Shown: positions 395 to 40,331 of the stretch, in pieces
Layout of the letters: every line of letters starts with the position of its first letter
How positions within the stretch are numbered: position 1 is the stretch's first letter
NCBI GenBank assembly: GCA_028288485.1
Contig: JAQBNO010000118.1
Location: 1 to 40,464, forward strand
DNA from: Segetibacter sp.
GTDB lineage: Bacteria > Bacteroidota > Bacteroidia > Chitinophagales > Chitinophagaceae
Reading direction: 5' to 3'
Length of the DNA: 40,464 nt
Made by a program: the position numbers and the translations under genes
Notes under the pieces: model-generated
Seen by the model: only the letters and a program-made list of their open reading frames with translations
What the model was told of the DNA's origin: nothing
Database searches by the model: none

Positions 395-450
395 GTACAA
401 GTGTGCGACGCAACGATGCTCGATAGAAATTCTTTCGCCCGCTACAAAAC
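395..450 (+). repeat. R1 dispersed repeat, copy 1 (short form)
   Basis: The core GTACAAGTGTGCGACGCAAC begins at 395 and is followed by GATG. The copy lies between the start of the GNAT gene and the end of the DoxX gene. The distal end, read on the minus strand, begins TTTTGTAGC, matching the T-rich GGTACCGGC-like end of better copies. Forward orientation is defined here as GTACAAG reading on the plus strand. Nothing else is recognised between 356 and 556. Confidence 0.8.
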
Positions 451-556
451 AATTGTCCTTAATATAATGTAAACCAAACTTCTATTTTCCATACCTGTTC
501 TTTTACTTCTGTTTCTATTAATGTTCTCTTCCACCGGTTCGGCAGTATTTATTAAA

Positions 557-1021
557 CTATAATCTCGGGCTATTGTTTGCATTATTCGAAATTCCTGCAT
601 CTACACTTGCCTTTCCACCTCCTGTTATTAAAAGAATAATTGCGAGTCCAAACAGCAGGATGAAAAATTCGACCCCTTCACCTTTTTGTGTGCCGGTCCA
701 ATTCATAAAGAACCCGTGTTGAAGATGTACTTTAAGAACAACTCCCGTAAAGAGTCCAACAAAACCCAGAGCGGCTACACGGGTAAGAAAGCCGAAGATT
801 AAGAGCAAGGATGCAAAGAATTCGATCAGGATCACGAATAAGGCTACAACATAGGGCAAACCAACCTGGGTTGTTAAAAATCCCATTGTTCCGGTAAACC
901 CATAGCCACCGAACATGCCCAAAAGTTTTTGTGCTCCATGCGGCAATATTGTAATACCGAGGGCCAAACGTGCAATTAAGGGTGCCCAGTTATTTGCGTT
1001 GGTAGCGATAATCTTTTTCAT
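557..1021 (-). CDS. DoxX family membrane protein
   Basis: This 154-residue protein has four hydrophobic segments, at about residues 15-35, 50-75, 80-100 and 118-137, and begins in the DoxX manner (WAPLIARLALGITILPHGAQKLLG, where the HGAQK motif in the first helix is characteristic). DoxX-family proteins sit in the inner membrane; some are subunits of quinol oxidase-like systems, but most have no assigned role, and a specific electron-transfer role cannot be claimed here. It is on the same strand as the Rossmann-fold protein at 1114-1626, with 92 bp between them, so co-transcription is possible. The start at 1021 (MKKII) gives a normal length and a charged N-terminus. Confidence 0.88.
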   Translation of the reverse strand: MKKIIATNANNWAPLIARLALGITILPHGAQKLLGMFGGYGFTGTMGFLTTQVGLPYVVALFVILIEFFASLLLIFGFLTRVAALGFVGLFTGVVLKVHLQHGFFMNWTGTQKGEGVEFFILLFGLAIILLITGGGKASVDAGISNNANNSPRL

Positions 1022-1113
1022 ACTATTTATTGTTTTAATTGAAAATTAAATGTAGGATAAGCAAGTTGTTCATTTGTTGAAGCGCAATAAAACTTGCTTT
1101 TTTCTCAAACCTT

Positions 1114-1626
1114 CTACAGTTCGTTCACGGGCAACCGGTTATGAAGGGTTAGGGAGAAGCCGGCTTTGACCATCATTGCCGCAATTGTTCGAACCGCTTC
1201 TTCATTTTCTCCAACTATTGAAACCGCGTTAGAAGGATGGTTAAAACATGCTGAAATGACACAGGAATGAGGTAATACATACTGTATTTCTTCCACTATT
1301 GCCCTATCGCCTCCAGCATTTAAGATGACCAGCACTATTTTTTGGGTCGCTACTTCTTTTATCTTACCGGCTATTTTCTTTTGTTGATCAGAATGATTAG
1401 CAAGAATGATGATGTCGGCTTCCCAGCAACCTTCCCTGGTACAATCAATTAATTCTGCATCTATGCCTGCAGTTTTTCTTTTTTGATCATCTAAAATACG
1501 GGCAAGACCAGCTTTATTTTCACCCATTAAAAGAAACCGGTAATCCAATAACAGTAGTTGACCAATAATGAGCTTCGATTGTTCCTCTGCCGCACCAGCA
1601 ATTGCTATTGTTTTCTTTACCGCCAT
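1114..1626 (-). CDS. NAD(P)-binding Rossmann-fold protein, NADP oxidoreductase-like
   Basis: This 170-residue protein starts with a beta strand and loop (KTIAIAGAAEEQSKLI) resembling the dinucleotide-binding turn of the coenzyme F420-dependent NADP oxidoreductase / NAD-binding-2 group. It continues with an alternating alpha/beta pattern, including a strand ending in an acidic segment (EADIIILANHSDQ) and a later VLVILNAGG strand. The usual G-x-G-x-x-G is degenerate here (G-A-A-E-E-Q), so cofactor binding is uncertain. It is shorter than full reductases of this class and has no C-terminal helical substrate domain. An exact TAnnTTTG -7 box lies 20 bp upstream. The DoxX gene follows on the same strand. 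The reaction is unknown. Confidence 0.6.
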   Translation of the reverse strand: MAVKKTIAIAGAAEEQSKLIIGQLLLLDYRFLLMGENKAGLARILDDQKRKTAGIDAELIDCTREGCWEADIIILANHSDQQKKIAGKIKEVATQKIVLVILNAGGDRAIVEEIQYVLPHSCVISACFNHPSNAVSIVGENEEAVRTIAAMMVKAGFSLTLHNRLPVNEL

Positions 1627-1645
1627 CTTGGTTTCTTTTGTTACA

Positions 1646-1653
1646 CAAAGCTA
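1646..1653 (-). promoter_or_regulatory. Bacteroidota-type -7 promoter element
   Basis: The minus strand reads TAGCTTTG, an exact match to TAnnTTTG, 20 bp upstream of the start codon at 1626. It would place transcription initiation close to the start codon, as is common in this phylum. No clear -33 TTG was found at the usual distance. Confidence 0.45.
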
Positions 1654-1897
1654 CAAAACACGCTAGCCTTTGTACATTACGATAGGATAATAAATTGTAT
1701 TGATATATGTCACATAAAATGTCGTACTTAAGGCCCTTGGGAGCTACGTCTTTATAGAATTATTAAAGCTCCAAACGAGGTTCGTGTTCACCGGCCTCTC
1801 CTTGGGAGTCTTTAATATTTTTTATTTTTTCTCTATAAACACGGTGCCCTTCCACAGCAGCTACAATCTTAATTAAACCACATTATATATCACATAA

Positions 1898-2482
1898 CTA
1901 CTTCCGGCCGGCCATTAGGCCACGGATGCGGCTTAAAGTTTCACGTGTAATACCAAGGTAGGAAGCGATCATATGCTGCGGTACTCTTTGAACGCAATCA
2001 GGAAACGACTTCATTAACTTGATGTATTTCTCTTCTGCCGTTTCGGTCATAGAACCCATTAAGCGGCGTTGGGTGGCAATAAGATTATTTTGAATGAGAA
2101 TACGAAAGTAACGTTCGAAAGCCGGGATCTTTTCAAGTAAGATATCCCACGAAGGTTTTGTGATTAGTAGCAATTCGCAGTCTTCCAAAGCCTCCATATT
2201 ATATAATGAAGGCTCGTTAGTGAGGAAACTATAGAGGTCAGCCATCCACCAACCTTCGAGTGAAAACTGAAGAATATGTTCGGTTGCTTTTTCATCAACT
2301 GTATACGTTCGTAAAATTCCTTTTTCTACAAAGGCGGTGTACTTACATACATCGCCTTCCTGCAGCAGGTATTGCCTTTTACGAAGCTTCTTCGGAAGAA
2401 ACAGTGTTTTGCAGAACTCAAATTCATCTTCTGTAACCGAAATGTTTTCGGTAACCTTCTTAAACAACAACTCGAACATCAA
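1898..2482 (-). CDS. Crp/Fnr family transcriptional regulator
   Basis: The 194-residue protein has an N-terminal cyclic-nucleotide-binding beta-barrel fold (about residues 25-120; LLQEGDVCKYTAFVEKGILRTY is typical of the barrel entrance) and a C-terminal winged helix-turn-helix (about 150-190; VPQHMIASYLGITRETLSRIR, a classic Crp recognition helix with E-T-L-S-R). It lacks the Fnr cysteine cluster, and the cAMP-contacting Arg-Ser pair is not evident, so the ligand is unknown. Bacteroidota carry many such short regulators, often next to genes they control. Here the neighbouring DoxX and Rossmann genes lie downstream on the same strand. An alternative start at the second Met changes the product by one residue. 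Confidence 0.9.
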   Translation of the reverse strand: MMFELLFKKVTENISVTEDEFEFCKTLFLPKKLRKRQYLLQEGDVCKYTAFVEKGILRTYTVDEKATEHILQFSLEGWWMADLYSFLTNEPSLYNMEALEDCELLLITKPSWDILLEKIPAFERYFRILIQNNLIATQRRLMGSMTETAEEKYIKLMKSFPDCVQRVPQHMIASYLGITRETLSRIRGLMAGRK

Positions 2483-2627
2483 TAAAGCAATTAATTAATG
2501 CTGCAAGGTAATATAGTATAAGATAAATCGGTAAGGTTGCGAGGTTATCAAATATTAAAGGATAAATTGATTTCGAAAAACCAGTAATAAGAAGAATAAT
2601 TCGAATTTTTTAAAAAGCAGGGTATCG

Positions 2628-2960
2628 CTATTTCACAGCCGGTGTTTTAGACTTTTTATATTTATTAGTTCGTGCATCACTGATCACTCCTTTCCAGCTT
2701 AGGCCATAAGCGAAATCATATTTGTTACCTTCTGAAGCGAAATGGGGCTCCATGTCGTGCGGGACGTCTTCAAATTGCATTTCAACAGTCTGCATATTAG
2801 CAGGCATTTGAACCGGTAAAAGACCAGCCGGTTCTGCTGCACCGGAAAGAATGTTGAACATTGCGTGGTGCTGCGTTCCAAAACCTACAACAATACCATT
2901 TACCTGTTTTTCAAATTCAGCAAATATCATAGGCTTCGAAGCTTCAACAATTACAATAAC
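2628..2960 (-). pseudogene. C-terminal remnant of a GH3 beta-glucosidase
   Basis: The reading frame is open from an in-frame TAG at 2961-2963 to the stop at 2628. It reads as the last ~110 residues of a glycoside hydrolase family 3 enzyme: a strand V-I-V-I-V-E-A-S-K-P, then GIVVGFGTQHHA, then AEPAGLLPVQMPANMQTVE, and finally a NKYDFAYGLSWKGVISDAR stretch. The proline-leucine rich PAGLLPVQMP segment and the DFAYGLSW ending are hallmarks of the GH3 C-terminal domain. The roughly 600 residues that would carry the catalytic domain are absent; upstream sequence to 3018 shows no further GH3 signal. The Met at 2930 makes it look like a 100-residue gene, but it is a fragment and probably not functional. 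Confidence 0.85.
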
Positions 2961-3018
2961 CTACTGAATATTGATTTTATGCTCTTGTGCCACGCACTAA
3001 AGCCAGTCTGGCAAAAAC

Positions 3019-4524
3019 TCACCTTATAAATTTCCCTATAACCGGCAACTTCTGAAATTCCTTTTTCTCGACAAACAGAATAAACCGGGTATAAATAAAA
3101 AGCAGGATGGAAGCCATGATAAGACTGAAATAAAGGTTCGGTAACAACCAGGTAGCGCCTTTGTGTATAAAAAACAATATGACCACTATTACAATATAGG
3201 CTACCAGTTTTTTCCAGGCGTAAGGGATCTTGTACTCTTTCTGACCCCAGACAAAACTAATGACCATCATACTGCCATAACAAAAGAAAGTGGCCCACGC
3301 ACAGGCTAAATACCCAAACCTCGGAATGAAAAGCCAGTTAATGACAATAGTAACAACTACTCCCGTTATAGTTATGTATGCACCGGCTTTGGTTTTATTT
3401 CCCAACTTATACCAGATGCTAAGATTGTAATAAATGCCCAGAAAAATGTTTGCGAGCAACAGGATTGGAACTATGCCCAGGCCGACCCAATATGTCTCCC
3501 CTACAAAATATTTAAGAACCGGAAGATAGAGGCTCACAAAAAGGAACATTAGCGTTACGGTTATTACGAAAAACTTCATCACTCTTGCATACGTACGCTG
3601 CGGGTTTAACCCTTCTGCCTGTTTAAAGAAAAATGGTTCGGCCCCCATACGGAACGCCTGTATAAACAAACTGATCAGTAACGATAGTTTGTAACAGGCA
3701 CTATAAATACCCACTTGTTCTTGTTTAAAAGTATCGCTTCCGGGAACCCAGGCATGTAGCATGAGCCGGTCAACAGTTTCGTTGATCATTCCGCCCAGGC
3801 CAACAATTATCAGGGGCATTGCGTAGATCATCATTTCTTTCCACAACTTACTATTGAAATTAAGTTTTATTGACCCGATTTGACCTGCCAGTAATAGCAA
3901 CGTTAGTCCTGATGACAGAAGATTAGCGACGATGATATAGGTAACTGGGTTGACATCGGTACGATACAAAAAACTTATCCAGCTATTCGGATTGTCTTGC
4001 AGGATTTTCGGACAATAAGATAAAAAGAAGACGGTGGCGGCAACATAGGTGAGTATACTGCAGATTCGTACAAAAGCATATTGTACCGGTCTTCCGTCGT
4101 GCCTTAGTTTTGCAAAAGGAATGGTGGTTAATGTATCTATTGCGATGATAAGAATGCTTAGTTCTATCAGTTGCGGCTCATCTGCAACTCCGGCAATACC
4201 AGCCAGCTGTGTTCTAAAGATCCATAGCAGGGAAGACAGGATGATGGAAGAAGCAAAAAGAGAAATGGATGCTGTACTATAGATGGTATTCTCATACTCC
4301 TTTCGTTGCGAAAAGCGGAAATAAGCTGTTTCAAAACCGTAAGTAAACAGTACATTAAGCAATGGAATGGCGGCATACACCATACTCATTTTTCCATAGT
4401 CGGCAACCTGTAAAACGGAGGTTTGTGTTAAATAAGGTGTAAGCAGGTAACTGATAAAGCGGGCAGCAATAGAACTCACTCCGTACCACATCGTTTGTCC
4501 CGCCAATTTTTTAATTCCGCTCAA
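3019..4524 (-). CDS. Wzx-like polysaccharide flippase (MOP superfamily)
   Basis: This 501-residue integral membrane protein has about 12-14 hydrophobic helices spread along its length and the N-terminal signature of oligosaccharide flippases (KKLAGQTMWYGVSSIAARFISYLLTP). The GMINETVDRLML segment near residue 250 is the start of the second half repeat. Family members flip undecaprenyl-linked oligosaccharides across the inner membrane for O-antigen, capsule or exopolysaccharide assembly. No glycosyltransferases adjoin it, so this is an orphan flippase and the glycan cannot be named. The length is normal for the family. An exact TAnnTTTG element precedes the start codon by 17 bp. Confidence 0.9.
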   Translation of the reverse strand: MSGIKKLAGQTMWYGVSSIAARFISYLLTPYLTQTSVLQVADYGKMSMVYAAIPLLNVLFTYGFETAYFRFSQRKEYENTIYSTASISLFASSIILSSLLWIFRTQLAGIAGVADEPQLIELSILIIAIDTLTTIPFAKLRHDGRPVQYAFVRICSILTYVAATVFFLSYCPKILQDNPNSWISFLYRTDVNPVTYIIVANLLSSGLTLLLLAGQIGSIKLNFNSKLWKEMMIYAMPLIIVGLGGMINETVDRLMLHAWVPGSDTFKQEQVGIYSACYKLSLLISLFIQAFRMGAEPFFFKQAEGLNPQRTYARVMKFFVITVTLMFLFVSLYLPVLKYFVGETYWVGLGIVPILLLANIFLGIYYNLSIWYKLGNKTKAGAYITITGVVVTIVINWLFIPRFGYLACAWATFFCYGSMMVISFVWGQKEYKIPYAWKKLVAYIVIVVILFFIHKGATWLLPNLYFSLIMASILLFIYTRFILFVEKKEFQKLPVIGKFIR

Positions 4525-4540
4525 TTGTATCTTATTTTCA

Positions 4541-4548
4541 CAAAAATA
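4541..4548 (-). promoter_or_regulatory. Bacteroidota-type -7 promoter element
   Basis: The minus strand reads TATTTTTG, an exact TAnnTTTG match, 17 bp upstream of the flippase start at 4524. Initiation would fall just upstream of the start codon. Confidence 0.4.
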
Positions 4549-4661
4549 GCTGTAAGAGTTTAGCCTGCCATCCTTTTTATAAGGCCAATATAAAATATAG
4601 GAATATTACAATCCAACTAGTAGAAACGCAACTTCACTTTAGTTTTCTCAAATACATCTTT

Positions 4662-5069
4662 CTAAAAGTGATCCGGGCCAACTTTACGCCGGTTTCCTTT
4701 TATCTCCGATTTATTTTTCTTTGCCTGCACCCTTCTTTCTTTAGACGCTTTCGATGGCCTTGTAGCTATTCTCGCTTTCTTTTTAACCAGTGCATGTTCT
4801 ATTAATTCGTTTATTTTTCTAACCACTTCATCCCGGTTTCCCAATTGTGTTCTTGCTGTCTGTGATTTTACCAGCAGGAATCCTTCCAACGTAATTTTGT
4901 TGGCTAATCTTTCTGTAATTACTTGTTTTTGTTCGTCTGTAAAAAGAGTAGAGTTTGCTACCGGCCAACGGCCTTCAACCATCGTCTCTACCTTGTTTAC
5001 ATTCTGGCCACCTTTACCTCCGCTTCGTGCTGTGCTAAATATTATTTCGTTGTAAACGTCTACCTTCAT
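4662..5069 (-). CDS. arfB: Alternative ribosome-rescue factor, peptidyl-tRNA hydrolase ArfB (YaeJ)
   Basis: The 135-residue product has the release-factor catalytic domain: STARSGGKGGQNVNKVETMV contains the GGQ tripeptide that hydrolyses peptidyl-tRNA, followed by the short alpha/beta domain and a very basic C-terminal tail (SKASKERRVQAKKNKSEIKGN) that in ArfB enters the empty mRNA channel of stalled ribosomes. It lacks the codon-recognition domain of RF1/RF2. The frame is open further upstream to 5249, but that extension overlaps the divergent dtd gene and has no family match; MKVDVYNEI at 5069 is the conserved start, with Met at 5075 possible. The dtd start lies 27 bp away on the other strand. 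Confidence 0.92.
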   Translation of the reverse strand: MKVDVYNEIIFSTARSGGKGGQNVNKVETMVEGRWPVANSTLFTDEQKQVITERLANKITLEGFLLVKSQTARTQLGNRDEVVRKINELIEHALVKKKARIATRPSKASKERRVQAKKNKSEIKGNRRKVGPDHF

Positions 5070-5096
5070 AACCATAAAATTACAAGGAAAAATGTT

Positions 5097-5549: not shown

Positions 5550-5640
5550 TAGAACCAGGATTTGTGAGATTGCGTAAGATTAAAGTGAAATGAAGACTTT
5601 TTGTAATACCGGCTAATCTTTTTACAGGAACAGTTGTTGC

Positions 5641-5790
5641 TTACGATGTACTCGAACCCATTGAGCAATAGTTTTCTTGGCTTCTAAATCCCCGCACGAT
5701 TTCCCTTGTTTCCTCAAACATCGCTAAATAATTATCAGGGCGCAAAAAAGGATGAATAAACCTGTCGCCTCGCAGCCAGTACAACCAAAA
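5641..5790 (-). pseudogene. Possible gene remnant abutting an R1 repeat
   Basis: On the minus strand a frame without stops runs from the R1 copy at 5791 to a TAA at 5641-5643. It has a protein-like composition, including RGDRFIHPFLRPDNYLAMFE and then ETREIVRGFRSQENY. There is no start codon at its left end: the frame enters directly from the repeat. It looks like the C-terminal end of a lost gene whose 5' part ended at the repeat, but no family was recognised, and 50 open codons could occur by chance. The rest of 5550-5861 shows no gene. Confidence 0.25.
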
Positions 5791-5836
5791 GTACAAGTGT
5801 GCGACGCAACGAAGTTTAATTAAAGGCCCCGGTGCC
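5791..5836 (+). repeat. R1 dispersed repeat, copy 2 (short form)
   Basis: The core GTACAAGTGTGCGACGCAAC starts at 5791. The 3' part is diverged; on the minus strand it reads GGCACCGG near the end, in place of GGTACCGG. The copy ends about 25 bp before the MazG gene and adjoins the possible gene remnant on its left. Confidence 0.75.
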
Positions 5837-5861
5837 TAGTACATAAAAAATTAATCACACC

Positions 5862-6194: not shown

Positions 6195-6342
6195 ATTTTA
6201 TTGTTATACGGTACAGATTAAAGTTACTCACCGGTTTCCATTTTAGGGAAAATGCTTAAATTGGCACTCCACATGCAACCAAATCGTATCTACTCAGGTC
6301 TTTAAAGAGGAACTAAATAATAACAAATAAATTCGTTTTCCT

Positions 6343-9734: not shown

Positions 9735-9795
9735 TTTTTTTGGGGGAGCAGCAGTAGTTTTTCATGGAGTCATCGTTGTGTCACTCTCTTGTACT
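9735..9795 (-). repeat. R1 dispersed repeat, copy 3 (short form, GTGACAC subtype)
   Basis: The plus strand reads a T-run with GGGGGAGC, then CAGTAGTTTTTCATGG, then CATCGTTGTGTCACTCTCTT followed by GTACT. It belongs to the subtype in which the core dyad GCGACGC is replaced by GTGACAC. It lies in the 621-bp gap 9619-10239, which otherwise holds only R1 copy 4 and the mfd promoter; no gene is seen there. Confidence 0.75.
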
Positions 9796-10071
9796 GTAAA
9801 TCATTGTTCTTCAGTTAACATATTTACTGGAATGTGCAAATACTAAGAACGATACCGAAAAGACAATAACAAAAGAACTACAACAACTCATGCAAAATTT
9901 GATAACGACTTTATAACTACTTTTCAGATTCCAAGAAATATGTAGAAGATTGCAGGAACAAAGAGTTTTGCACTAGAAAAATTACCTTTAAAACGGAAAT
10001 CAAGAGTTTTCTGCTATTAAAGACTAGCTATGTCCAATTTAAGTAGGTGGAGGCAGACATAAAAATATACC

Positions 10072-10131
10072 GTACAAGTGAGTGACACAACCAAAGCCTC
10101 ACAACGAAATTCAGCTGGTAACATACATTTC
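10072..10131 (+). repeat. R1 dispersed repeat, copy 4 (short form, GTGACAC subtype, degenerate)
   Basis: The core GTACAAGTGAGTGACACAAC starts at 10072. The distal part is diverged but ends in GCTGGTAAC, similar to the GCCGGTACC end of other copies. Copies 3 and 4 are inverted with respect to each other, with their GTACAAG ends facing inward across 276 bp of non-coding DNA. The distal end is approximate. Confidence 0.6.
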
Positions 10132-14124: not shown

Positions 14125-14261
14125 CCGATCAGTTAAAGTTGTTTAAGAGGAAGAACTTTTGGTAGCCATCGTGGGGAACAATGATTAAACTTTGCTTGCG
14201 ACGCTCCGTTTGTCGTTTGGATGTCTATTGAACCTGGCTTAAAATCAGGGAAAAAATATGG

Positions 14262-15750: not shown

Positions 15751-15790
15751 CGGCCTCCTTCTCCTTAAGGAGAAGGATCGAGGATGAGGT
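15751..15790 (+). repeat. R2 palindromic dispersed repeat, copy a
   Basis: It contains the perfect 20-bp palindrome CCTTCTCCTTAAGGAGAAGG at 15757-15776, followed by ATCGAGGATGAGGT. A second copy lies at 18161-18197 in the same orientation. It lies between the Uma2 gene and the R1 copy upstream of ureB. Confidence 0.75.
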
Positions 15791-15810
15791 TGCTGCGCGG
15801 ATAACAAAAT

Positions 15811-15870
15811 GTACAAGAGTGCGACGCAACGAATGCCTCATGAAAATCCTACAGATTGGTCCACAAAAAA
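15811..15870 (+). repeat. R1 dispersed repeat, copy 5, ending 10 bp before ureB
   Basis: The core GTACAAGAGTGCGACGCAAC starts at 15811. The remainder, read on the minus strand, is a T-run with GTGGACC, then GTAGGATTTTCATGAGGCAT, aligning with the CAGTAGTTTTTCATGG segment of copy 3. The T-rich end points at ureB. An ATG formed at 15809 by the repeat opens a frame continuous with ureB. Confidence 0.8.
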
Positions 15871-16255: not shown

Positions 16256-17973
16256 GCCTTTACATAAACAGGATCAAATATGCCAATATGTACGGCCCTA
16301 CGGTTGGAGATAAAGTGCGCCTGGCAGATACCGACCTCATCATCGAAATTGAAAAGGATCATACTGTTTACGGCGATGAAAGCAAGTTTGGCGGGGGTAA
16401 GACGATACGGGATGGAATGGCCCAATCATCAACTGCCATGCGAAAAGATGGGGTACTTGATTTTGTAATAACGAGCGTAATGATCATCGATCACTGGGGC
16501 ATCGTAAAGGCGGACATCGGCATTAAGGATGGAAAAATTGTAGGCATCGGAAAAGCAGGCAATCCTGATACGATGGATGGAGTAGATGCAAACATGGTGA
16601 TAGGTGCATCAACTGAAGTGCACGGAGGTGCCGGTTTAATTGCAACTGCGGGCGGAATAGATACACACATTCATTTTATTTGTCCCCAGCAAATCGATCA
16701 TGCTTTGTTTAGTGGAATCACCACCATGATTGGTGGTGGCACTGGTCCTGCTGATGGAACTAACGCAACGACAGTTACTCCCGGCGCCTGGAACATTCGT
16801 AAAATGCTTGAAGCTGCCGATGCTTTTCCTATGAACCTCGGCTTTCTTGGTAAAGGTAATTGCGCAACAACAGCACCATTAACCGAGCAGATTGAAGCCG
16901 GTGCTTTAGGACTTAAAATTCATGAAGACTGGGGATCAACGCCTGCCGTAATCGACGCGTCGCTAAAGGTGGCAGATGAACTGGATGTGCAGGTTGCAAT
17001 ACACACTGATACACTTAACGAGTCAGGTTTTTTAGAAGATACCATTAATGCCATCAACGGCAGGGTAATTCATACTTATCATACCGAAGGTGCCGGCGGC
17101 GGCCATGCTCCCGATATTATCAAGGCGGCTATGTATCCAAATATTTTGCCGTCTTCCACTAATCCTACCCGTCCTTACACGGTTAACACAATCGATGAGC
17201 ATTTGGATATGCTTATGGTTTGTCATCACCTTGATAAATCTGTTCCCGAAGACGTTGCTTTTGCCGATAGCCGTATCAGGCCCGAGACCATTGCTGCCGA
17301 AGATATCTTACACGATATGGGTGTTTTTAGTATGATGAGTTCCGACAGCCAGGCTATGGGCCGTGTTGCTGAGGTAATCATACGCACGTGGCAAACAGCA
17401 GACAAGATGAAAAAGCAAAGAGGCTTTTTGCCGGAAGATAAAGGAAACAACAACGATAATTTCAGGGTAAAAAGATATGTAGCAAAATATACCATCAACC
17501 CTGCAATTACCCACGGCATCAGCGAATATGTTGGTTCTATAGAAGCCGGAAAGCTTGCCGATCTCGTTCTCTGGAAACCTGCTTTATTCGGTGCGAAGCC
17601 CGAAATGATCATTAAAGGCGGGATGATAATAGGCAGTAAAATGGGCGATCCTAATGCATCTATTCCAACACCTCAACCGGTAATTTACCGGCATATGTTC
17701 GGCGCTTATGGCAAGGCTCTATTTAATACTTGTGCAACCTTCGTTTCCAAAATTTCACTTGACAACAACGTTGTTCAGCAATACGGGTTACAGAAGATGC
17801 TGTTGCCGGTAAAGAACTGCAGGAATATCAGCAAAAAAGACCTTATTCACAACGATGCAACGCCGGAGATAGAAGTCAATCCGGAGAATTATGAAGTGAA
17901 GGTAGATGGGGTTCACATAACGTGTGAACCGGTAAGTGTTGTTCCGATGGCGCAAAGGTATTTCCTGTTCTAA
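16252..17973 (+). CDS. ureC: Urease subunit alpha (catalytic)
   Basis: The 573-residue catalytic subunit hydrolyses urea to ammonia and carbamate at a bis-nickel centre. Visible residues are the H-I-H of [13 protein letters not shown], the carbamylated Lys222 in [12 protein letters not shown], His ligands in [16 protein letters not shown] and [17 protein letters not shown], the flap [20 protein letters not shown] with the catalytic His, and the Asp ligand in [12 protein letters not shown]. All active-site positions seem intact and the length is standard (566-573). It begins [20 protein letters not shown] inside the ureB stop. R1 copy 6 lies just after its stop, so the link to ureE (258 bp away) is interrupted. 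Confidence 0.97.
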
Positions 17974-17978: not shown

Positions 17979-18031
17979 TTTGTTTTGATACCAACATCCC
18001 GTTTCATAGCATCGTTGTTGCGTCGCAATCC
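17979..18031 (-). repeat. R1 dispersed repeat, copy 6, just after ureC
   Basis: The plus strand reads TTTTGATACC, then CCCGTTTCATAG, then CATCGTTGTTGCGTCGCAAT. The T-rich end starts within about 6 bp of the ureC stop, and the core lacks the final CTCTTGTAC. It is inverted relative to copy 5, so ureBC lies between the two T-rich ends. Confidence 0.65.
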
Positions 18032-18160
18032 GTTCATCGCCAAACCAATGTGCAGCTTCAGTTTGAATTTCAAAGCTGCTTATAATTTCAAAATACCTTA
18101 TCTCTAATTGTACGTTTTAAAAAATCAGCATATCAGATATCTTCAACATGCTGCACTGGG

Positions 18161-18197
18161 CATCCTTCTCCGCAGGGAGAAGGAACGAGGATGAGGT
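18161..18197 (+). repeat. R2 palindromic dispersed repeat, copy b
   Basis: CCTTCTCC-GCA-GGGAGAAGG at 18164-18183 keeps the arms of copy a, with altered central bases, and is followed by the same ACGAGGATGAGGT tail. It lies 33 bp before ureE. Confidence 0.75.
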
Positions 18198-21581: not shown

Positions 21582-21640
21582 AAACTATAAACAGCCTTTG
21601 TTTCGAAAGCCGAAGTTGCTTGACCGTTTGCCGATGAAGT

Positions 21641-21760
21641 GATTGCGACCCTTCGGCAAGCTCAGGGTAAACTGCACGCTGCTATGGAAAGCTACCCGCG
21701 AGAGGTTCTGATATATCGGAAGCAACGATGATGCGGTGTACTGAAGTTGGTATCCCAACA
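21641..21760 (+). repeat. R1 dispersed repeat, copy 7 (long form)
   Basis: The long form is in forward orientation. It starts GATTGCGACCCTTCGGCAAG, has a 72-bp insert (21651-21722), then CAACGATG (21723-21730), and ends at the dyad GTTGGTATCCCAAC. The insert contains a CAGGGTAAACTG segment that on the other strand reads CAGTTTACCCTGAGC, shared with copies 10 and 13. It lies between ureD and the UreH-like gene. Confidence 0.75.
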
Positions 21761-21835
21761 CATTTAGCACGGGCGTACTGGCGGTCATTAACCTGCCACT
21801 CGTATTAAACATCAACCGAAAAAATAAATAAATAA

Positions 21836-27355: not shown

Positions 27356-27399
27356 GCAAAGACGCTGCAAGGACCTGTTTAGCAGATCTTTTTTGAATA

Positions 27400-27460
27400 T
27401 TTTTTGGTACCCGGCAGTTGTAACTCCGTTGATACTAACGTTGCGTCGCACTCTTGTACT
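27400..27460 (-). repeat. R1 dispersed repeat, copy 8 (short form, best preserved)
   Basis: The plus strand reads TTTTTTGGTACCCGGCAGTT, then a variable 17 bp, then AACGTTGCGTCGCACTCTTG followed by TACT. It shows the full short-form layout with both ends intact. The remaining intergenic sequence 27461-27854 shows no gene; a small GGCCTG-AAAGAA-CAGGCC hairpin lies at 27621-27638. Confidence 0.85.
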
Positions 27461-27854
27461 GATTCAATAAACTGAACGACCACGCGATGCGAACAGCTAC
27501 ATTCATTGAATGTTACGGTAAAATGTTACAGCAAATTACAGCCGCCGTGGTCTATAAAAAGGGACTGTCAGGATTGACAACTGAAAAATCTGCTGAAATT
27601 TAAAAGATGTATAACCTGAAGGCCTGAAAGAACAGGCCGCGCGATGTTGTAATGATTGTATTTTAAACAAATACTACTTCGATTCCAGCTTCAACGCAGC
27701 ATGTTCGCGGAATTGTAACTGCTTTTATTAAATCTTGTCCGCACAATCCCCAAAGAATTTTTGCTTCTTTTTATCCATCAGTAGCTCGTGCGGACAAGAA
27801 AAAATAAAAAAAATATTCCCATTATTAAAACCTGGAAACTGGAAGCTTTCGGCA

Positions 27855-32435: not shown

Positions 32436-32649
32436 AAAAATTATTTTTAGACTATTTATTTGTTAGTCACTTTACCTATTGATCAAACCTGGCTGACTGC
32501 CAGAAGTAATGTTCGGTTCTTATTTCAATGTTTCCTGCTACTGCGTGCTCAAAAAATAAAACAATAATTGAAAATAGCCTGTCGTAGTAAATGTTACAGG
32601 TGGCTCCTTTCCACTATTATCCCCGGAACCGCCCATACCCGTGTTAACA

Positions 32650-32708
32650 GTACAAGAGTGCGACGCAACGATGTTGCCAGTTGTTTTTAAGCCGGTACCC
32701 AAAAAAAA
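32650..32708 (+). repeat. R1 dispersed repeat, copy 9 (short form)
   Basis: The core GTACAAGAGTGCGACGCAAC starts at 32650, followed by GATG, then TTGCCAGTTGTTTTT and GCCGGTACCCAAAAAAAA. Both ends are well kept. It lies in the 346-bp gap between the sialate esterase end and the PL11 start. The remaining gap holds a protein-like minus-strand stretch (32538-32648; includes GMGGSGDNSGKEPPVTF) but no recognisable gene. Confidence 0.85.
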
Positions 32709-34391: not shown

Positions 34392-34415
34392 TTCTTTTTT
34401 ACCGGTAAAAAAGAA
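34392..34415. promoter_or_regulatory. Perfect 24-bp palindrome, candidate operator
   Basis: The left arm TTCTTTTTTACC is followed directly by its exact reverse complement GGTAAAAAAGAA, with no spacer. It lies between the divergent sialate esterase-like (start 34308) and alpha/beta hydrolase (start 34493) genes, where a terminator is not expected, so a dimeric regulator site is the simplest reading. No regulator gene adjoins it. Confidence 0.45.
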
Positions 34416-34492
34416 AAAGAAAATATAATCCAATAACTTCAGCCTTCAATTTGCCCTGGCGAACTTTCAACCGGGTGGATAAATCACATCTA

Positions 34493-35416: not shown

Positions 35417-35566
35417 AACTGCGCACCTGACCATTTAATAAAGTAAGGAGAGTCGACACGACAGTGGACTACTTCTGGATTTTAACAAAACCAAAGATCG
35501 TCTTTAATCACTTTTTAACCTGCTAATCAAGGTGCCGGTTAAATTGTAGTTTACCTTTACCTTACA

Positions 35567-35986
35567 ATGAAAACAAAACATCCGATTTTAATTATTGAAG
35601 ATGATGAAGATGATTGCGAATTAATTCAATCGGCATTGGACGACATTGGAATCCAAAATGAGCAGAAGTGTTTCAGAAATGGACAAGAAGCCTTGAACTA
35701 TTTGCAGAGTACATCTGAAAAAACATTCTTAATACTTTCAGATGTGAACATGCCCATTTTAAACGGCTTCGAATTAAAGCGCATCATCAATGAAAGTGAT
35801 AAATTAAGGACCCAAAGTATACCCTTTGTTTTCCTTTCAACATCTGATACTAAAAGCGAAGTCAATAAGGCGTACGACATGCTGGTTCAGGGCTATTTTA
35901 AAAAGCCTCACACTTACAGCGATATAAAAGACCTGTTGAAAATGGTTACACATTACTGGGGAACTGCCCGCCATCCAAACTCGTAG
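35567..35986 (+). CDS. Single-domain response regulator (CheY/Rcp1-like)
   Basis: The 139-residue protein is one receiver domain. ILIIEDDEDDCELIQSALDD gives the acidic pocket, LILSDVNMPILNGFELKRI contains the phosphorylated Asp (D in S-D-V-N-M-P), VFLSTSDTKSEV holds the conserved Ser/Thr, and GYFKKP the Lys. The extended N-E-Q-K-C-F-R-N-G-Q-E-A-L-N-Y-L segment is that of Rcp1-type regulators that pair with PAS or phytochrome-like kinases. No output domain. Its kinase is not adjacent. A near-match TACCTTTA (35552-35559) lies just before the ATG. Confidence 0.94.
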   Translation: MKTKHPILIIEDDEDDCELIQSALDDIGIQNEQKCFRNGQEALNYLQSTSEKTFLILSDVNMPILNGFELKRIINESDKLRTQSIPFVFLSTSDTKSEVNKAYDMLVQGYFKKPHTYSDIKDLLKMVTHYWGTARHPNS

Positions 35987-36005
35987 ATCACCAAAAAAGC
36001 TCTTT

Positions 36006-36048
36006 AAATAGAAAGGCTGTTTCAAAATTTGAAACAGCCTTTCTATTT
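36006..36048. terminator. Bidirectional hairpin terminator
   Basis: Two perfect 21-bp arms flank a single A: the left arm (36006-36026) starts AAATAGAAAGGCTGTTTC and the right arm (36028-36048) is its exact reverse complement. A-rich and T-rich stretches at the two ends provide U-tracts in both directions. It lies between the convergent stops of the response regulator (35986) and peroxiredoxin (36061) genes. Confidence 0.9.
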
Positions 36049-36060
36049 TAGTGGTTTCCT

Positions 36061-36696
36061 TTATAGATCGGGTTGAGGTGTAAACCGTAAATATGGTTTC
36101 ACAACCTTCACTCCTTTCGGAAACTTAACCTGTGCGTCTTCCGTAGAAATAGTATTTGCAACAATCACATCATCTCCACTTTTCCAATCTGCCGGTGTAG
36201 AAATACTATATTTAGCAGACAACTGTAAAGCATCTATAACTCTTACGATCTCCTGGAAATTTCGCCCGATTGCAGCAGGGTAAGTTAATGTAAGTTTTAC
36301 CTTTTTATCTGGACCGATAATGAATACCGACCTTACTGTGGATGTAGCCGAAGCATTAGGATGTATCATATCGTATAGTTCCGATACCCGCCTGTCTTTG
36401 TCTGCTATCAAAGGAAAATCTACTACTGTATTTTTAATCTCGTTAATGTCCTTAACCCAACCGTGATGGTCTTCAACAGGGTCGACACTTACAACAAGAA
36501 CATTTACATTTCTCTTTTTAAACTCCTCGCCCAGTTCTGCCGTTCTCCCTATTTCTGTAGTACACACCGGTGTGTAGTCAGCAGGATGAGATAATAAGAG
36601 GCCCCAGCTATCTCCCAGGTATTCATAAAAGTCGAGCTCGCCTACTGTTGTTACAGCTTTAAAATTGGGTGCCGTATCCCCTAAACGTAATGCCAT
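36061..36696 (-). CDS. 1-Cys peroxiredoxin (Prx6 type)
   Basis: The 211-residue enzyme reduces peroxides through its peroxidatic Cys in HPADYTPVCTTEIGRTAEL (P-x-x-x-T/V-C). DPVEDHHGWVKDI and VFIIGPDKKVKLTLTYPAA are typical of the Prx6 group, and the C-terminal dimer arm (PKGVKVVKPYLRFTPQPDL) is complete. No second resolving Cys is seen. It is the third gene of a likely operon after the AraC regulator and DUF983, with a gap of 27 bp. Cytoplasmic. Confidence 0.95.
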   Translation of the reverse strand: MALRLGDTAPNFKAVTTVGELDFYEYLGDSWGLLLSHPADYTPVCTTEIGRTAELGEEFKKRNVNVLVVSVDPVEDHHGWVKDINEIKNTVVDFPLIADKDRRVSELYDMIHPNASATSTVRSVFIIGPDKKVKLTLTYPAAIGRNFQEIVRVIDALQLSAKYSISTPADWKSGDDVIVANTISTEDAQVKFPKGVKVVKPYLRFTPQPDL

Positions 36697-36723
36697 AAGT
36701 TTATCGAAGTTGATGATGAAGTA

Positions 36724-37215
36724 TTACCAGTTATTCTCCTGGTCTTTGTTTGTTCTTTCCAATGGTTGAGGCGGGTTCGTTCTCCAGTTTTTGTCGTACC
36801 TGACAAAGAACGCCAGCCATCCGGTTCGTGCTAATCTCATCAGGTAAGGCTGCAATCCTATGAGTAAAACTGCATTTAATACTAACCAGTAAACAATTCG
36901 GTTATCATATAGAGAGAAACCAATAAGAACCCACCAGGCTACAAATGTTGCCACGCTAAGTGCTACTGTAAAAGCATAACTCACATAGCTGGAACCGAAG
37001 TAAAAGCCTACTTCAATGTCTAAAGGCTGACCGCAAACAGGACATTCTTTATTCATTTTCATCGTGCTCTTCAAAATCCACGGGTTCTTAACCGCAAACA
37101 TATCGCCCTTTCTACATCTGGGGCACTTGCAGGCAAACAAGTTTAAAAAACCGGGGTTACTTTCGTTTGTCTTTATCGACATATCATTATTATTAAGGTT
37201 CGGAATAGAAGTCAT
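36724..37215 (-). CDS. DUF983 membrane protein with zinc-ribbon-like cysteines
   Basis: The 163-residue protein has the DUF983 pattern: C-K-C-P-R-C-R-K-G-D-M-F near the N-terminus, a second Cys pair in NKECPVCGQPLDIEVGFYFG, then two hydrophobic helices (about residues 75-100 and 107-125). The cysteines suggest a metal-binding ribbon facing the cytoplasm; the function is unknown. It begins 10 bp after the AraC stop and ends 27 bp before the peroxiredoxin start. Met at 37182 (MSIKTNESN) is an alternative start that leaves more space from the upstream gene. Confidence 0.87.
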   Translation of the reverse strand: MTSIPNLNNNDMSIKTNESNPGFLNLFACKCPRCRKGDMFAVKNPWILKSTMKMNKECPVCGQPLDIEVGFYFGSSYVSYAFTVALSVATFVAWWVLIGFSLYDNRIVYWLVLNAVLLIGLQPYLMRLARTGWLAFFVRYDKNWRTNPPQPLERTNKDQENNW

Positions 37216-37225
37216 AACAAAAATT

Positions 37226-38113
37226 TTACCGTACTAATAATTGCTTTCGAAATTCATCAGGGGTAACACCTACATTTTTCTTAAAAAAACGGTTGAAGTA
37301 GGAGTTGTCCTGGAAATTGAGATTATAAGCAATCTCTGTAATCGTCATGCCTGCATTGGTAAGTAATCGCTTTGCTTCCAGTAATACGCGATCTCTTATT
37401 AGTTCCCCGGCAGTTTTACCTAATAAATCCTGGCATAATGCATTAAGATGATTAGGTGTTACATAAAGCAAGTCAGCATATTCTTTCGGCAGCTTTATTG
37501 TCAAATAATGTTGATCGATCAACCGCCTGAAATTTCTTAGCAACACCTGCTTCTGCTGCGGAATGCTCTTCTTATTATTGCTCTTGCACGAGTTTTCAAC
37601 GATCATAAAAAGCTGCATCAGCAATAACCTGGTCAAATCATTTTCACCTTCCTTCCCCTGCGGCGTTTGCCCTACGATTTCATCGAACAGTCTTGTTACT
37701 TTGCCGTGTACTTCTATTGGTAAATAGCAAACACTTTCTTCGCTTATGCCGCTAAAAAACTGGAAGCGATCGAGGTAGTTCGGGTTCAATAAAAAGGAGC
37801 GAAAAAGACTTTCAGAAAAGTTGATAATATAACCATCTACTTCTCCTTCAAAATGCCAGCTATGTACCTGCCCGGGTATCATAAAGTAGATTTCGTGGGG
37901 CGCGACGGCAAATTGTGTGAAATCTATAGTATGTGTTCCTGCACCCTTTGTGAACATTACGAGGTGATAAAAAGAATGGCGGTGAGCATGATGTAAACTA
38001 TGCGAATGCCGGTTTAAATAGTCTCCAAATCGCTCAACCAGTAAGTCCTTCTGCTGAGGCTGGTCTTTCGATAAGCTACAGATATCATACACCGGAATTT
38101 TTTCCTTACTCAT
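37226..38113 (-). CDS. AraC family transcriptional regulator
   Basis: The 295-residue regulator has an N-terminal cupin sensor domain (about 15-160; HSLHHAHRHSFYHLVMFTKG and PGQVHSWHF) and a C-terminal double helix-turn-helix (about 190-292). The first recognition part is YADLLYVTPNHLNALCQDLL; the second, ITEIAYNLNFQDNSYFNRFF, leads into the classic KKNVGVTPDEFRKQ. The many histidines of the cupin loop may bind a metal or ligand, which is unknown. It is the first gene of an apparent operon with DUF983 and the peroxiredoxin, so it may control them and itself. An exact TAnnTTTG lies 20 bp upstream. Confidence 0.93.
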   Translation of the reverse strand: MSKEKIPVYDICSLSKDQPQQKDLLVERFGDYLNRHSHSLHHAHRHSFYHLVMFTKGAGTHTIDFTQFAVAPHEIYFMIPGQVHSWHFEGEVDGYIINFSESLFRSFLLNPNYLDRFQFFSGISEESVCYLPIEVHGKVTRLFDEIVGQTPQGKEGENDLTRLLLMQLFMIVENSCKSNNKKSIPQQKQVLLRNFRRLIDQHYLTIKLPKEYADLLYVTPNHLNALCQDLLGKTAGELIRDRVLLEAKRLLTNAGMTITEIAYNLNFQDNSYFNRFFKKNVGVTPDEFRKQLLVR

Positions 38114-38132
38114 ATCGCTTTCAATAACAACG

Positions 38133-38140
38133 CAAAGGTA
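38133..38140 (-). promoter_or_regulatory. Bacteroidota-type -7 promoter element of the AraC operon
   Basis: The minus strand reads TACCTTTG, an exact TAnnTTTG match, 20 bp upstream of the AraC regulator start at 38113. Confidence 0.5.
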
Positions 38141-38333
38141 CCTTATACCTTACACGTTATTATTATACGATTTATGGCAGTTATGGCACTTTTTACTGAT
38201 TCTTGTTAATCCACTTCCTGGCCGGCTTAATTAGATCAGGAGAATGTTTTAACGAAATTGCTGCATCTATTCCTCGAATTTTTATTGGCTGACACAACAG
38301 GTGTGTGAATAGCAATCTTCAGTTTACAGCAAT

Positions 38334-38466
38334 TGTTTTTTATGTTCCTGCCTGTAGCACTCAAAGAATCATCGTTGCCTCCGATACATCGTAGCGGTTC
38401 AAACGTAGTTTTTCATAGTGTCGTGGCAGTTTACCCTGAGCTGGCGAAGCGTCGCACTCTTGAACT
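38334..38466 (-). repeat. R1 dispersed repeat, copy 10 (long form)
   Basis: CATCGTTG (38370-38377) and CGTCGCACTCTTGAAC (38450-38465), adjacent in short copies, are separated by a 72-bp insert. The insert carries CTCCGATACATCG, GTAGTTTTTCATAG and CAGTTTACCCTGAGC, all shared with copy 13. The proximal T-rich end is diverged. Gap 38114-38854 (741 bp) holds this copy, the hairpin at 38528, a possible gene start at 38702 and copy 11. Confidence 0.8.
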
Positions 38467-38527
38467 TTTTATTCTGGTATTAATCGCAATCCGAGGTTTA
38501 CAGAAAACAATCACTATTTACCAAATA

Positions 38528-38560
38528 CCTTTATCTCCGCACTCTTTGCGGAGATAAAGG
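38528..38560. other. Perfect 14-bp stem-loop in an intergenic region
   Basis: CCTTTATCTCCGCA, loop CTCTT, then TGCGGAGATAAAGG form an uninterrupted 14-bp stem with a 5-nt loop. No U-tract follows on either strand and no gene ends nearby, so it does not read as an ordinary terminator. It may be a further dispersed element or part of a small RNA. Confidence 0.5.
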
Positions 38561-38720
38561 GTCCTATTATCCGCAGACCCCTGGTCTGATAAAAATGGCT
38601 GCAGAACTACCAGGAAGACCTTTTGCGACTTCAAGGTTTACGATAAGTGTGATCGTGCTATTCGGCTGAATTATGAAGAGCAGACTTCTACAAGTACAAG
38701 GATGACTAAAACCGTTGGAG

Positions 38721-38779
38721 GTTTTTTGTTACAAGCACTTGAATAATTAACCAACATCGTTGTGTCACTCACTTGTACT
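38721..38779 (-). repeat. R1 dispersed repeat, copy 11 (short form, GTGACAC subtype)
   Basis: The plus strand reads GTTTTTTGTTACAAGC, then CATCGTTGTGTCACTCACTT followed by GTACT at 38755-38779. It faces copy 12 across the DUF1080 gene, with the GTACAAG ends of both pointing inward. Confidence 0.75.
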
Positions 38780-38854
38780 GAAGCCTGTGGCCTCGGCTAT
38801 TTTCTTTAAAATTCGTACACATTATTCCTGAGATCCTTCACGATACAGCAGCCA

Positions 38855-39733
38855 CTATTTGCATTTGGACGGGTCGGATTTTATATAATACGACCTGTAG
38901 TTGGGCGACTTCGGATCCATACATCCTTCGAGATCTAAGATCACAACATTTCTAAAATCAACTGGCTGTCCTTCACTTTGAAGTGCAATAAATCCTTCCT
39001 TCAACAATTTTCCATCCTGTTTTATTGCAGGGTTGTAATTGTTGGCGACCCCGCCACCAATTTGGGGCTTGGAATATTGTAAAACCGTATCTCCATTAAT
39101 AATGTGAGTTACCAGCGAATCGCCAAGTACAATTAATTCTCCCTGCACCCATTCATTAACAGGATAGGTTTTGGAATTCGATTCGATACAATGCCGCGGA
39201 TCTATCTTTCCTTTAAATACAACATCTGTTCCCGGCGAGCACATATTGCCTGTTGGACGAGGTTTTCCATCATCGAGGCCTGAAAGCAATTGAAACTCTA
39301 CCGAAATCGGCCAGTCCTGTTCCTTCAAAATTGTCTTTGGATCTTGCGAGTGAAACATTACTCCACTATTTCGAATCGTATACGAAGGTGCATCTTTTCT
39401 CCATTCACCTGTAATGCGATACTCAAACTTTAAATGATAATAAGAGTAGGGTTGCTTATAAAACAAATGGCCGTATTGCTGGTTGAATGAATCATACTTA
39501 TCGTAACGAACTTTTATTATTCCATCTTCAACCCTAAACGTGTTAGCCGGGTCTTCTCCTACCTCGTGATGATAAATCTTTACAACCCAGTCTTTAATAT
39601 CCTTTCCGTTGAAAAGAGGCTTCCACTCCTGCTTGCCCGCGCTCTTCTGCGCAGTTACACAACTGCTGTAAGCTACGCCCAGGACAAGTATAACAACCCA
39701 TGCAAAAAATGATTCGAAAATATTCTTTCCCAT
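38855..39733 (-). CDS. DUF1080 (3-keto-disaccharide hydrolase-like) lipoprotein
   Basis: The 292-residue protein starts MGKNIFESFFAWVVILVLGV and continues to a lipobox-like A-Y-S-S-C (Cys25). The mature domain is a concanavalin-like beta jelly roll of the DUF1080 family: EWKPLFNGKDIKDWVVKIYH, TIRNSGVMFHSQDP, WPISVEFQLLSG and KEGFIALQSEGQPVDFRNVV. Related proteins hydrolyse 3-keto-glycosides in Bacteroidota sugar catabolism. A C-terminal appendage GCMDPKSPNYRSYYIKSDPS followed by K-C-K is a Cys-bounded motif seen in other exported Bacteroidota proteins. The frame extends to 39763, but the 39733 start places the signal correctly, with AACCTTTG (one mismatch to TAnnTTTG) just upstream. Confidence 0.87.
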   Translation of the reverse strand: MGKNIFESFFAWVVILVLGVAYSSCVTAQKSAGKQEWKPLFNGKDIKDWVVKIYHHEVGEDPANTFRVEDGIIKVRYDKYDSFNQQYGHLFYKQPYSYYHLKFEYRITGEWRKDAPSYTIRNSGVMFHSQDPKTILKEQDWPISVEFQLLSGLDDGKPRPTGNMCSPGTDVVFKGKIDPRHCIESNSKTYPVNEWVQGELIVLGDSLVTHIINGDTVLQYSKPQIGGGVANNYNPAIKQDGKLLKEGFIALQSEGQPVDFRNVVILDLEGCMDPKSPNYRSYYIKSDPSKCK

Positions 39734-39844
39734 TTTTATTGTTTGTGATTTTAACCGGAACAAAGGTTTGGATTGAGCTTTGAATGTATGTTTTATTATA
39801 CAATATTTCTCTCTTTTTTATTTACCGTTGCATAAAAACGAAAA

Positions 39845-39900
39845 GTACAAGAGTGCGACGCAACGGCGGCCGGAAGAAGTGCTTAAGCCGGCTACCAAAA
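39845..39900 (+). repeat. R1 dispersed repeat, copy 12 (short form)
   Basis: The core GTACAAGAGTGCGACGCAAC starts at 39845; the distal end reads GCCGGCTACCAAAA. It lies upstream of the DUF1080 gene. The 39901-40187 stretch that follows shows no convincing gene; a GCCCG-GCTGAA-CGGGC hairpin lies at about 39924-39939. Confidence 0.8.
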
Positions 39901-40187
39901 CCTTCTTTAAAAACAACTTAAAAGCCCGGCTGAACGGGCAGGCAAACGTTTTCCTATTAGGTTGTCTTTTAGTTCAACCGGCAATTGACACAAGCGGCAT
40001 CTATAGAAGTAATACCCGGATAATGTTCTGCTATGAAAAATTTCACTGACACCTTTGATTTGCGTATCAGTATTACAGTATACTTTAGCTACCACCGGAT
40101 TTCTAATAAGACACGAGTTGCTGTCGCTTCGTTTCAATAAGAAATTACAATGTTCCTGTACAGGTTGGTACCGTTTAAAGACGTTTT

Positions 40188-40331
40188 ATTTTTTTGGTGC
40201 CGGCAATAGTTTTTCCATGGCATCGTCGCTACCTCCGATACATCGGGAGCGGCTCAAAGGTAGTTTTTCATAGTCCCGATTAATCGCGAGCAGTTTACCC
40301 TGAGCGTGTCGAAGGGACGCACTCTTGTACT
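40188..40331 (-). repeat. R1 dispersed repeat, copy 13 (long form)
   Basis: The copy begins TTTTTTTGGTGCCGGCAATA, has CATCGTCG at 40221-40228, an 86-bp insert (40229-40314), and ends GGACGCACTCTTGTACT. The insert folds on paper: CTACCT pairs with AGGTAG around a CCGAT-AC-ATCGG stem, and CGATTAATCG is a further palindrome. It is the most complete long copy. The rest of the window to 40464 is AT-rich and shows no gene. Confidence 0.85.

Follow-up and report, generated by a model that had tools for sequence, protein, structure and literature searches.

A dense REP-like intergenic repeat family of Chitinophagaceae with a conserved 20-nt core

The DNA analysed here, hereafter the window, is a stretch of 40,464 nt from Segetibacter sp. 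(genome of 6.4 Mb in 220 contigs). It carries 13 copies of a short intergenic repeat whose 20-nt core is almost letter-perfect while the remainder of the unit varies. With moderate confidence we regard this repeat as an old family similar to repetitive extragenic palindromic (REP) sequences, the core of which is read by a putative trans-acting factor and kept in place, new copies being added rarely, behind stop codons and in head-to-head arrangement. The recognised part would be the core, which has a short palindrome (GCGACGC or GTGACAC) at its centre. Copies would arise through addition of DNA to intergenic regions, often head-to-head and preferentially right behind stop codons. Once placed, the core would be maintained by purifying selection, the left and right blocks drifting under weak constraint.

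A polar unit with a conserved core

The architecture of the repeat was derived from column profiles of 116 copies of the Segetibacter genome together with copies of three other genomes, G058, G070 and G141. The unit measures about 85 bp and is polar: a left block is followed by the core GTACAAGwGTGCGACGCAAC (positions 1-20), a right block of variable sequence in which a skeleton is faintly discernible, the motif GCCGGnnACA near positions 44-53, and an A-run that reaches about position 58 before a G-poor stretch. The left block, about TTGCTGmATAnnnnTTCnnCA, extends 20-25 nt beyond GTACAAG, where an earlier first-pass annotation, right about the core, had placed the end of the unit. The core mostly starts with GTAC (also GTTG, GCAC or GCTG, rarely GTAG or GTGG), then AAGN before the palindrome, and its position 8 is free. 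Four low-copy genomes display the same skeleton with a right block individual to each copy.

Two core types were observed, both with an odd palindrome of 7 bp at the core centre: GCGACGC in type 1 and GTGACAC in type 2, positions 10, 12 and 16 switching jointly between TCG and ATA. Core type 2 is present in 6 of the 8 genomes that could be labelled (the Segetibacter genome, G098, G058, G070 with one copy, G141 and G103) and was not seen among 23 copies of G024 or 6 of G004. The copies first singled out as subtype or long forms were correctly located and are reclassified here, those with GTGAGTGACACAAC as this second core type and the others as what look like short copies enlarged by DNA within the palindrome. 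Covariation was found for the pair 12-16, which is C-G in 109 and T-A in 29 of 140 alignment rows, a score reached by none of 500 shuffles. This supports a symmetric site, and judged from the alignment a hairpin or a double-stranded two-fold site would fit equally well.

In 440 kb of the Segetibacter genome, 52, 23, 5, 10 and 12 sites were found at 0, 1, 2, 3 and 4 mismatches to the core; the control gave 0 up to 4 mismatches, background starting at 5. The spectra of G058, G070 and G141 peak at 0 as well (4, 1 and 0 control sites at 4 mismatches). In all four genomes the spectrum thus has its peak at 0 and has merged with background by 4-5 mismatches, which leaves no extended tail of decayed cores. 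Right blocks share a mean identity of 0.62-0.65 within five genomes, versus 0.56-0.58 for shuffled letters. No near-identical copies were detected among 102, 67, 46, 113 and 23 copies of five genomes, samples picked by a near-perfect core and representing a minor part of each genome: no right-block pair exceeded 0.92 identity, the closest lying at 0.82-0.92. A core kept almost to the letter while the rest drifts suggests an element read by a cell factor rather than plain junk.

Copy number and taxonomic range

Search of the Segetibacter genome with the core at up to 2 mismatches returned 470 sites (251 forward, 219 reverse; 0 and 1 for the reversed-pattern control). By the same core pattern, matches were found in 79 of 147 Chitinophagaceae genomes, among them the richest, G141 (1,570 sites), and G070 (1,471), G063 (1,096) and G058 (848). 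Some soil bacteria of the family thus hold hundreds of copies and others far more than a thousand. A profile search, with strict filters and at most 30 candidates scored per genome, matched 97 of the 147. In a sample of the phylum searched at up to 1 mismatch, 6 of 296 genomes matched, every one Chitinophagaceae. Among 80 named loci listed, from at least 114 stretches, titles referred to Chitinophagaceae, Chitinophagales, Sphingobacteriales or Bacteroidota/Bacteroidetes, including the genera Segetibacter, Foetidibacter, Pinibacter, Paracnuella, Lacibacter, Limnovirga, Flavisolibacter and Niastella. The proposal of a genome-wide, dispersed intergenic family is thus borne out.

A k-mer search of samples of 47-160 kb each from the zero-copy genomes G003, G085, G104 and G018 revealed no variant core. 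G018, which has no match to the element, carries an unrelated dense repeat of GGATGCACCGTAGCCAATGGATGCAC type in C1:1000001-1120000 (L182-L187). The exact core also occurs in eleven stretches of viral contigs (L424-L434), and these could be host flanks of proviruses.

Gain, loss and retention between congeners

Orthologous places were compared between congeners. At the place of the 5791 copy, the Segetibacter region measures 330 nt with its copy; in 8 of 8 congener loci the corresponding region, 15-204 nt long, has no match to the core. At a second place, the region with the copy is 636 nt long versus 210-231 nt in three congener loci. None of the 4 congener loci examined has a core match for the pair at 9794/10072. 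The region reaches 857 nt in one of these loci, and another locus was left out of this count as too long. Elsewhere in the same stretch, G098 and G440 carry copies absent from our genome.

Three places of the window share a copy with congeners. Upstream of ureB (15791..15870) a copy is present in G098 and G438, both with a near-identical core, and in G439, where it is split by added DNA. Core identity at this place across three species is 19/20, 19/20 and 18/20, while the 45 nt upstream match in 22/54, 23/51 and 28/53 columns, about half. Behind ureC (17979..18040), G098 and G438 hold the copy and 4 other loci lack it (2 of 6 congener loci). The third place, 21641, is common to our genome and G098. 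Neither of the two outcomes set beforehand as speaking against a mobile dispersed family was obtained: the core also occurs outside the window, and some orthologous places lack the copy.

The same comparisons bear on the long copies. Extra DNA within the core palindrome was found in four window copies, the one at 17979..18040 included, and in several copies of other stretches of the genome; it usually carries a CCCTTCGnc...GCTCAGGG hairpin. Upstream of ureB the copy is long in G439 and short in our genome, G438 and G098; at 21641 it is long in our genome and short, with a different palindrome, in G098. As congeners hold the short form at these two places, we interpret the long form as a short copy that received DNA within its palindrome. 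The CCCTTCGnc...GCTCAGGG modules (L117, L119, L134 and L135; window 21641, 38336 and 40188) lie inside some palindromes and elsewhere in succession, and they give the impression of a further REP-type repeat nested within the main one.

Position relative to genes

Samples of 200 kb (G058), 120 kb (G070), 80 kb (G141) and 440 kb (Segetibacter) were analysed with crude gene calls, in which starts are less certain than stops. The core lay within a gene in 4 of 112 Segetibacter copies. A copy was carried by 51/74, 34/45 and 24/32 of the intergenic regions of at least 150 bp in G058, G070 and G141, and by 82/192 in Segetibacter. By gene arrangement, such regions contained a copy in 37/58 convergent, 115/200 tandem and 39/85 divergent cases. 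Between tandem genes, copies ran with or against gene direction without significant bias (67 versus 85, p 0.17).

The two ends of the unit behaved differently near genes. In regions with one copy, 33 of 99 tails (12.7 expected) and 3 of 77 heads (9.6 expected) were placed between -6 and +9 nt relative to a stop codon. Near start codons the corresponding values were 2/69 (5.6 expected) and 0/91 (8.8 expected). One copy was present in 175 regions, two in 39 and three in one; copies were head-to-head in 30 of the 39. A role as intrinsic terminator was discarded: in the stretch examined, a strong terminator was found at 0 of 46 genes with an abutting tail versus 30 of 373 others, and this shortfall is trivial because the element itself fills the space.

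Copies within the window

The first-pass count of about 13 copies, 7 forward and 6 reverse, held under core scan, profile and alignment (Table 1), with 9 full and 4 long composite copies. The core GTACAAGAGTGCGACGCAAC, allowing 3 mismatches, occurs at 8 window sites versus 0 in 100 dinucleotide shuffles. A profile built only on sequence, from 140 copies out of many genomes, recovered the 9 full copies at E values of at most 5.9e-11 and matched three long copies in part (17979-18027, minus; 38449-38476 and 38336-38378, minus; 40318-40334 and 40188-40219, minus). The fourth long copy (21641, plus) escapes the profile at E up to 1 and can be aligned to two other long copies, those at 38466 and 40331. 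By eye, a degenerate inverted partner seems visible upstream of the copy at 5781..5850.

Table 1. Location of repeat copies in the window and of one Y1 gene fragment at locus L034
Feature	Position	Strand	Evidence or remark
Full copy, core type 1 (core 395-414)	381..453	+	Profile 48.6 bits, E 2.6e-14; core also in search of own genome
Full copy, core type 1 (core 5791-5810)	5781..5850	+	Core scan, profile and congener loci
Full copy, core type 2 (GTGACAC palindrome)	9736..9807	-	Profile E 5.9e-11
Full copy, core type 2, head-to-head with 9736-9807	10056..10125	+	Profile and congener loci
Weak, possibly decayed further copy	14157..14206	-	Profile 12.6 bits, E 0.0045
Full copy, core type 1, just upstream of urease beta-subunit start	15791..15870	+	Profile and congener loci
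Third subtype (GATTGCGACGCAAC core), tail adjoining urease alpha-subunit stop codon	17979..18040 (end approximate)	-	Profile, alignment
Long composite copy whose core palindrome is interrupted by DNA with CCCTTCGGCAAGCTCAGGG hairpin	21636..21765 (ends approximate)	+	Alignment
Full copy, core type 1 (core 27440-27459)	27399..27471	-	Profile E 2.3e-13
Full copy, core type 1 (core 32650-32669)	32640..32707	+	Profile E 2.2e-14
Long composite copy: core 38449-38476, tail 38336-38378, added DNA between	38336..38476	-	Profile, alignment
Full copy, core type 2	38722..38783	-	Profile E 1.5e-12
Full copy, core type 1 (core 39845-39864)	39830..39900	+	Profile E 1.4e-13
Long composite copy: core start 40318-40334, tail 40188-40219, added DNA between	40188..40334	-	Profile, alignment
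Worn IS200-like Y1 gene	L034 5057-5490		Between two outward-facing copies

Of 20 window proteins scanned with Pfam, one was without family; the others comprised enzymes, subunits and accessory proteins of urease, a helicase of TRCF type, a kinase and a regulator. No transposase was among them, in agreement with the first-pass annotation. A second short intergenic repeat, of CCTTCTCCTTAAGGAGAAGGATCGAGGATGAGGT type, occurs at 15752-15790 and 18159-18197; its two copies are 87% alike and more matches exist in G098. On the strand opposite to the urease alpha gene (16405-16701, minus), a match to the Rfam family 5_ureB_sRNA was obtained with 83.3 bits, which probably reflects conserved urease coding sequence.

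Search for a mobiliser

REP sequences are associated with Y1 transposases, and Y1_Tnp matches are present in 107 of the 147 family genomes; compared by reading, with no correlation computed, their counts do not follow copy number. G024, with 265 sites, is listed with 0 matches, and the absence of a match in G141, with 1,570 sites, is inferred from its absence among the genomes listed with one. From many more Y1 matches, 32 loci were checked for flanking copies: a profile match was found in the fetched flanks of four (L032, L055 in part, L058 and L066), and L066 is the only one with a match less than 1 kb from a readable Y1 gene, on one side. The first-pass annotation had proposed looking for a transposase gene flanked by repeat-like ends; none of the 32 is flanked on both sides, save a worn fragment at L032/L034 considered below. 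Movement by a REP-associated tyrosine transposase (RAYT) or by an IS200-type enzyme is therefore not supported, given G141 without a listed Y1_Tnp match, a single Y1 locus of 32 near a copy and the lack of near-identical copies. Nor was a transposase noticed among the recurrent open reading frames listed for 132 outward-facing pairs (286 frames), which were inspected by eye without a family search.

A miniature inverted-repeat transposable element (MITE) does not appear to be supported either, since an individual unit has a polar build and lacks inverted repeats at its ends; head-to-head pairs could mimic them. Of the initial idea of a family moved in trans like REP or MITE elements, the dispersal stands, with gain and loss between congeners; the RAYT/IS200 form is not supported and the MITE form appears not to be.

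RNA, coding and other readings

Rfam gave no match at gathering score for the window copies, and none at E up to 2 for copies in three 20-kb stretches of G058 and G141. Of five genomes, RNAalifold produced the core hairpin alone in two and no consensus structure in the other three. Folding of the whole unit, pooled over genomes, was slightly better than that of column-shuffled controls (-15.22 versus -14.37). Pairing of left and right blocks reached z -4.5 when pooled over genomes and z -0.7 against within-genome shuffles; as the signal vanished within genomes, it was dropped. A coding reading was rejected, the core in frame yielding by eye no consistent open frame, and so was an integron attC site, since no R boxes were recognised by eye.

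The data agree better with the other initial proposal, that of a protein-binding or RNA element, if it is taken at the DNA level: no significant orientation bias to tandem genes was observed, and at one orthologous place an almost identical core stands beside a diverged spacer.

Interpretation and alternatives

In our preferred interpretation of an old REP-like family with a core kept in place, a protein would read the core, the palindrome acting as a hairpin or as a two-fold site. The core would be selected at individual places in general, and the benefit may lie at the DNA level, for instance in marking a transcription-unit boundary, in supercoiling or in nucleoid binding.

Several observations weigh against it. 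Evidence that the core is closely retained in place comes mainly from the ureB place, with the ureC place second; at 21641 the palindrome itself differs between our genome and G098. Two low-copy genus pairs likewise retain a copy, and they add little because their flanks are conserved as well. At two comparable places, the core types of G058 and G141 are opposite and their right blocks unrelated; this favours replacement, or else separate arrival beside the same stop codon. The repeat is dispensable, 68 of 147 family genomes by pattern, or 50 by profile, being without a match. G003 and G103, two species of one genus, hold 0 and 295 sites, which looks like mobility. The stop-codon effect comes mostly from G058 (19/34, 4.9 expected), the others leaning weakly the same way (Segetibacter 8/43, 4.7 expected; G070 4/14, 1.9; G141 2/8, 1.3), and the convergent excess over divergent regions is weak (p 0.04 for any copy, p 0.17 for exactly one). 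As the pair 10-18 is lost in core type 2 and unpaired in 30 of 140 rows, support for a hairpin comes from a single covarying pair. No partner protein for the core was found in this analysis. Finally, the worn Y1 fragment of the Segetibacter genome lies between two outward-facing copies (L032 and the longer L034), about 1 and 1.3 kb away; we take this arrangement as chance because the fragment looks ordinarily IS200-like and copies are dense there.

More tentatively, a REP-like population that lost, or never had, its RAYT may now have become fixed chromosome punctuation, with the core selected at individual places and marking most longer intergenic regions of some Chitinophagaceae, and with paired factors reading two core codes that exist side by side.

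It is clearly less probable than our preferred interpretation, and to our mind doubtful, that the family is still mobile, a non-autonomous selfish element like MITEs or REPINs (paired REPs) moved in trans by another type of transposase and propagating only through intact cores. Gain and loss with added DNA at two places (eight and three congener loci), a range of 0 to 295 copies within one genus, head-to-head pairs as in REPINs and the opposite core types of G058 and G141 speak for it. It is at odds with cores free of a tail of decay, with right-block pairs that never exceed 0.92 identity in the five-genome samples, with the 1,570 sites of G141 next to no listed Y1_Tnp match and with the lack, by eye, of a transposase-like protein among the recurrent frames of the outward-facing pairs.

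A pure binding site for a nucleoid, gyrase-like or other chromosomal protein, multiplied by selection and not by transposition, appears unlikely. The skeleton of about 85 nt (left block, GCCGGnnACA and A-run) is much for a thousandfold origin by point mutation, and at two places the region is longer with the copy than without. The high occupancy of longer regions in G058, G070 and G141, the absence of a significant tandem-gene bias, the nearly unchanged core at the ureB place and the two symmetric core types nonetheless agree with it. Least probable is a transcribed RNA element acting on neighbouring mRNAs as terminator, stabiliser or riboregulator: tails abutting stop codons, the short palindrome and the added hairpins of long copies are suggestive, but orientation to tandem genes is not significantly biased, the copies lack an Rfam match, the consensus fold is absent or limited to the core hairpin and left-right pairing does not exceed within-genome shuffles (z -0.7).

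Should the interpretation of a REP-like family kept in place be right, one bacterial family harbours a very dense population of intergenic elements in which constraint is limited to a 20-nt core, two core codes exist and the position right after stop codons is favoured. The repeat explains part of the intergenic DNA in Segetibacter and related genera and would be a testable example of a repeat family that the host may have co-opted in the absence of the usual RAYT. It also cautions against reading mobility from repeat density alone.

Comparison with known systems

BOX elements of pneumococcus are modular and intergenic with a variable middle, and in this they resemble the repeat described here. 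Among titles and abstract openings, subscription papers and preprints lying outside the search, no paper describing the repeat was found; the sole paper matched by a 12-mer (PMC6515281) concerns, as far as its accessible part goes, plant transcription factors.

We compared the repeat with GTAG REPs and REPINs as defined in the available parts of PMC6006769 and PMC3733652. Like these and the bacterial interspersed mosaic elements (BIMEs), it has a short imperfect palindrome, is extragenic, reaches hundreds of copies, occurs singly or in inverted pairs and is patchy among relatives. The hairpin of GTAG REPs has the tetranucleotide GT[AG]G at its foot, whereas mostly GTAC followed by AAGN is found here. 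GTAG REPs flank a cognate RAYT gene, or a Y1 transposase is at least encoded in the genome, in contrast to G141 and G024, for which no Y1 match is listed, and to the Y1 loci examined here, which are not flanked on both sides. Inverted pairs are common here too (30 of 39 two-copy regions), yet 175 regions hold a single copy. The repeat is also longer, polar and furnished with an A-run. It is accordingly not filed under RAYT REPs.

CGTC-tagged REPs, according to the part of PMC3733652 consulted, are mostly head-to-head dimers without a dedicated transposase, their CGTC being often changed to TGTC. The reverse strand of our core likewise reads CGTC (type 1) or TGTC (type 2). As far as that description goes, and compared by reading, these REPs have a stem of 8-9 bp after the tag and a CCA tail, neither of which is seen in our repeat, whose 7-bp palindrome contains the tetranucleotide.

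TnpAY1 subclass 2.6 is described in the accessible part of PMC6006769 as mostly from Bacteroidetes, with atypical structures and non-canonical repeats that have further genomic copies. The phylum is the same, while the 32 Y1 loci are not flanked on both sides save for the worn fragment at L032/L034. Compared by this partial description only, the repeats of subclass 2.6 might be the same as the Chitinophagaceae repeat and remain its closest candidate.

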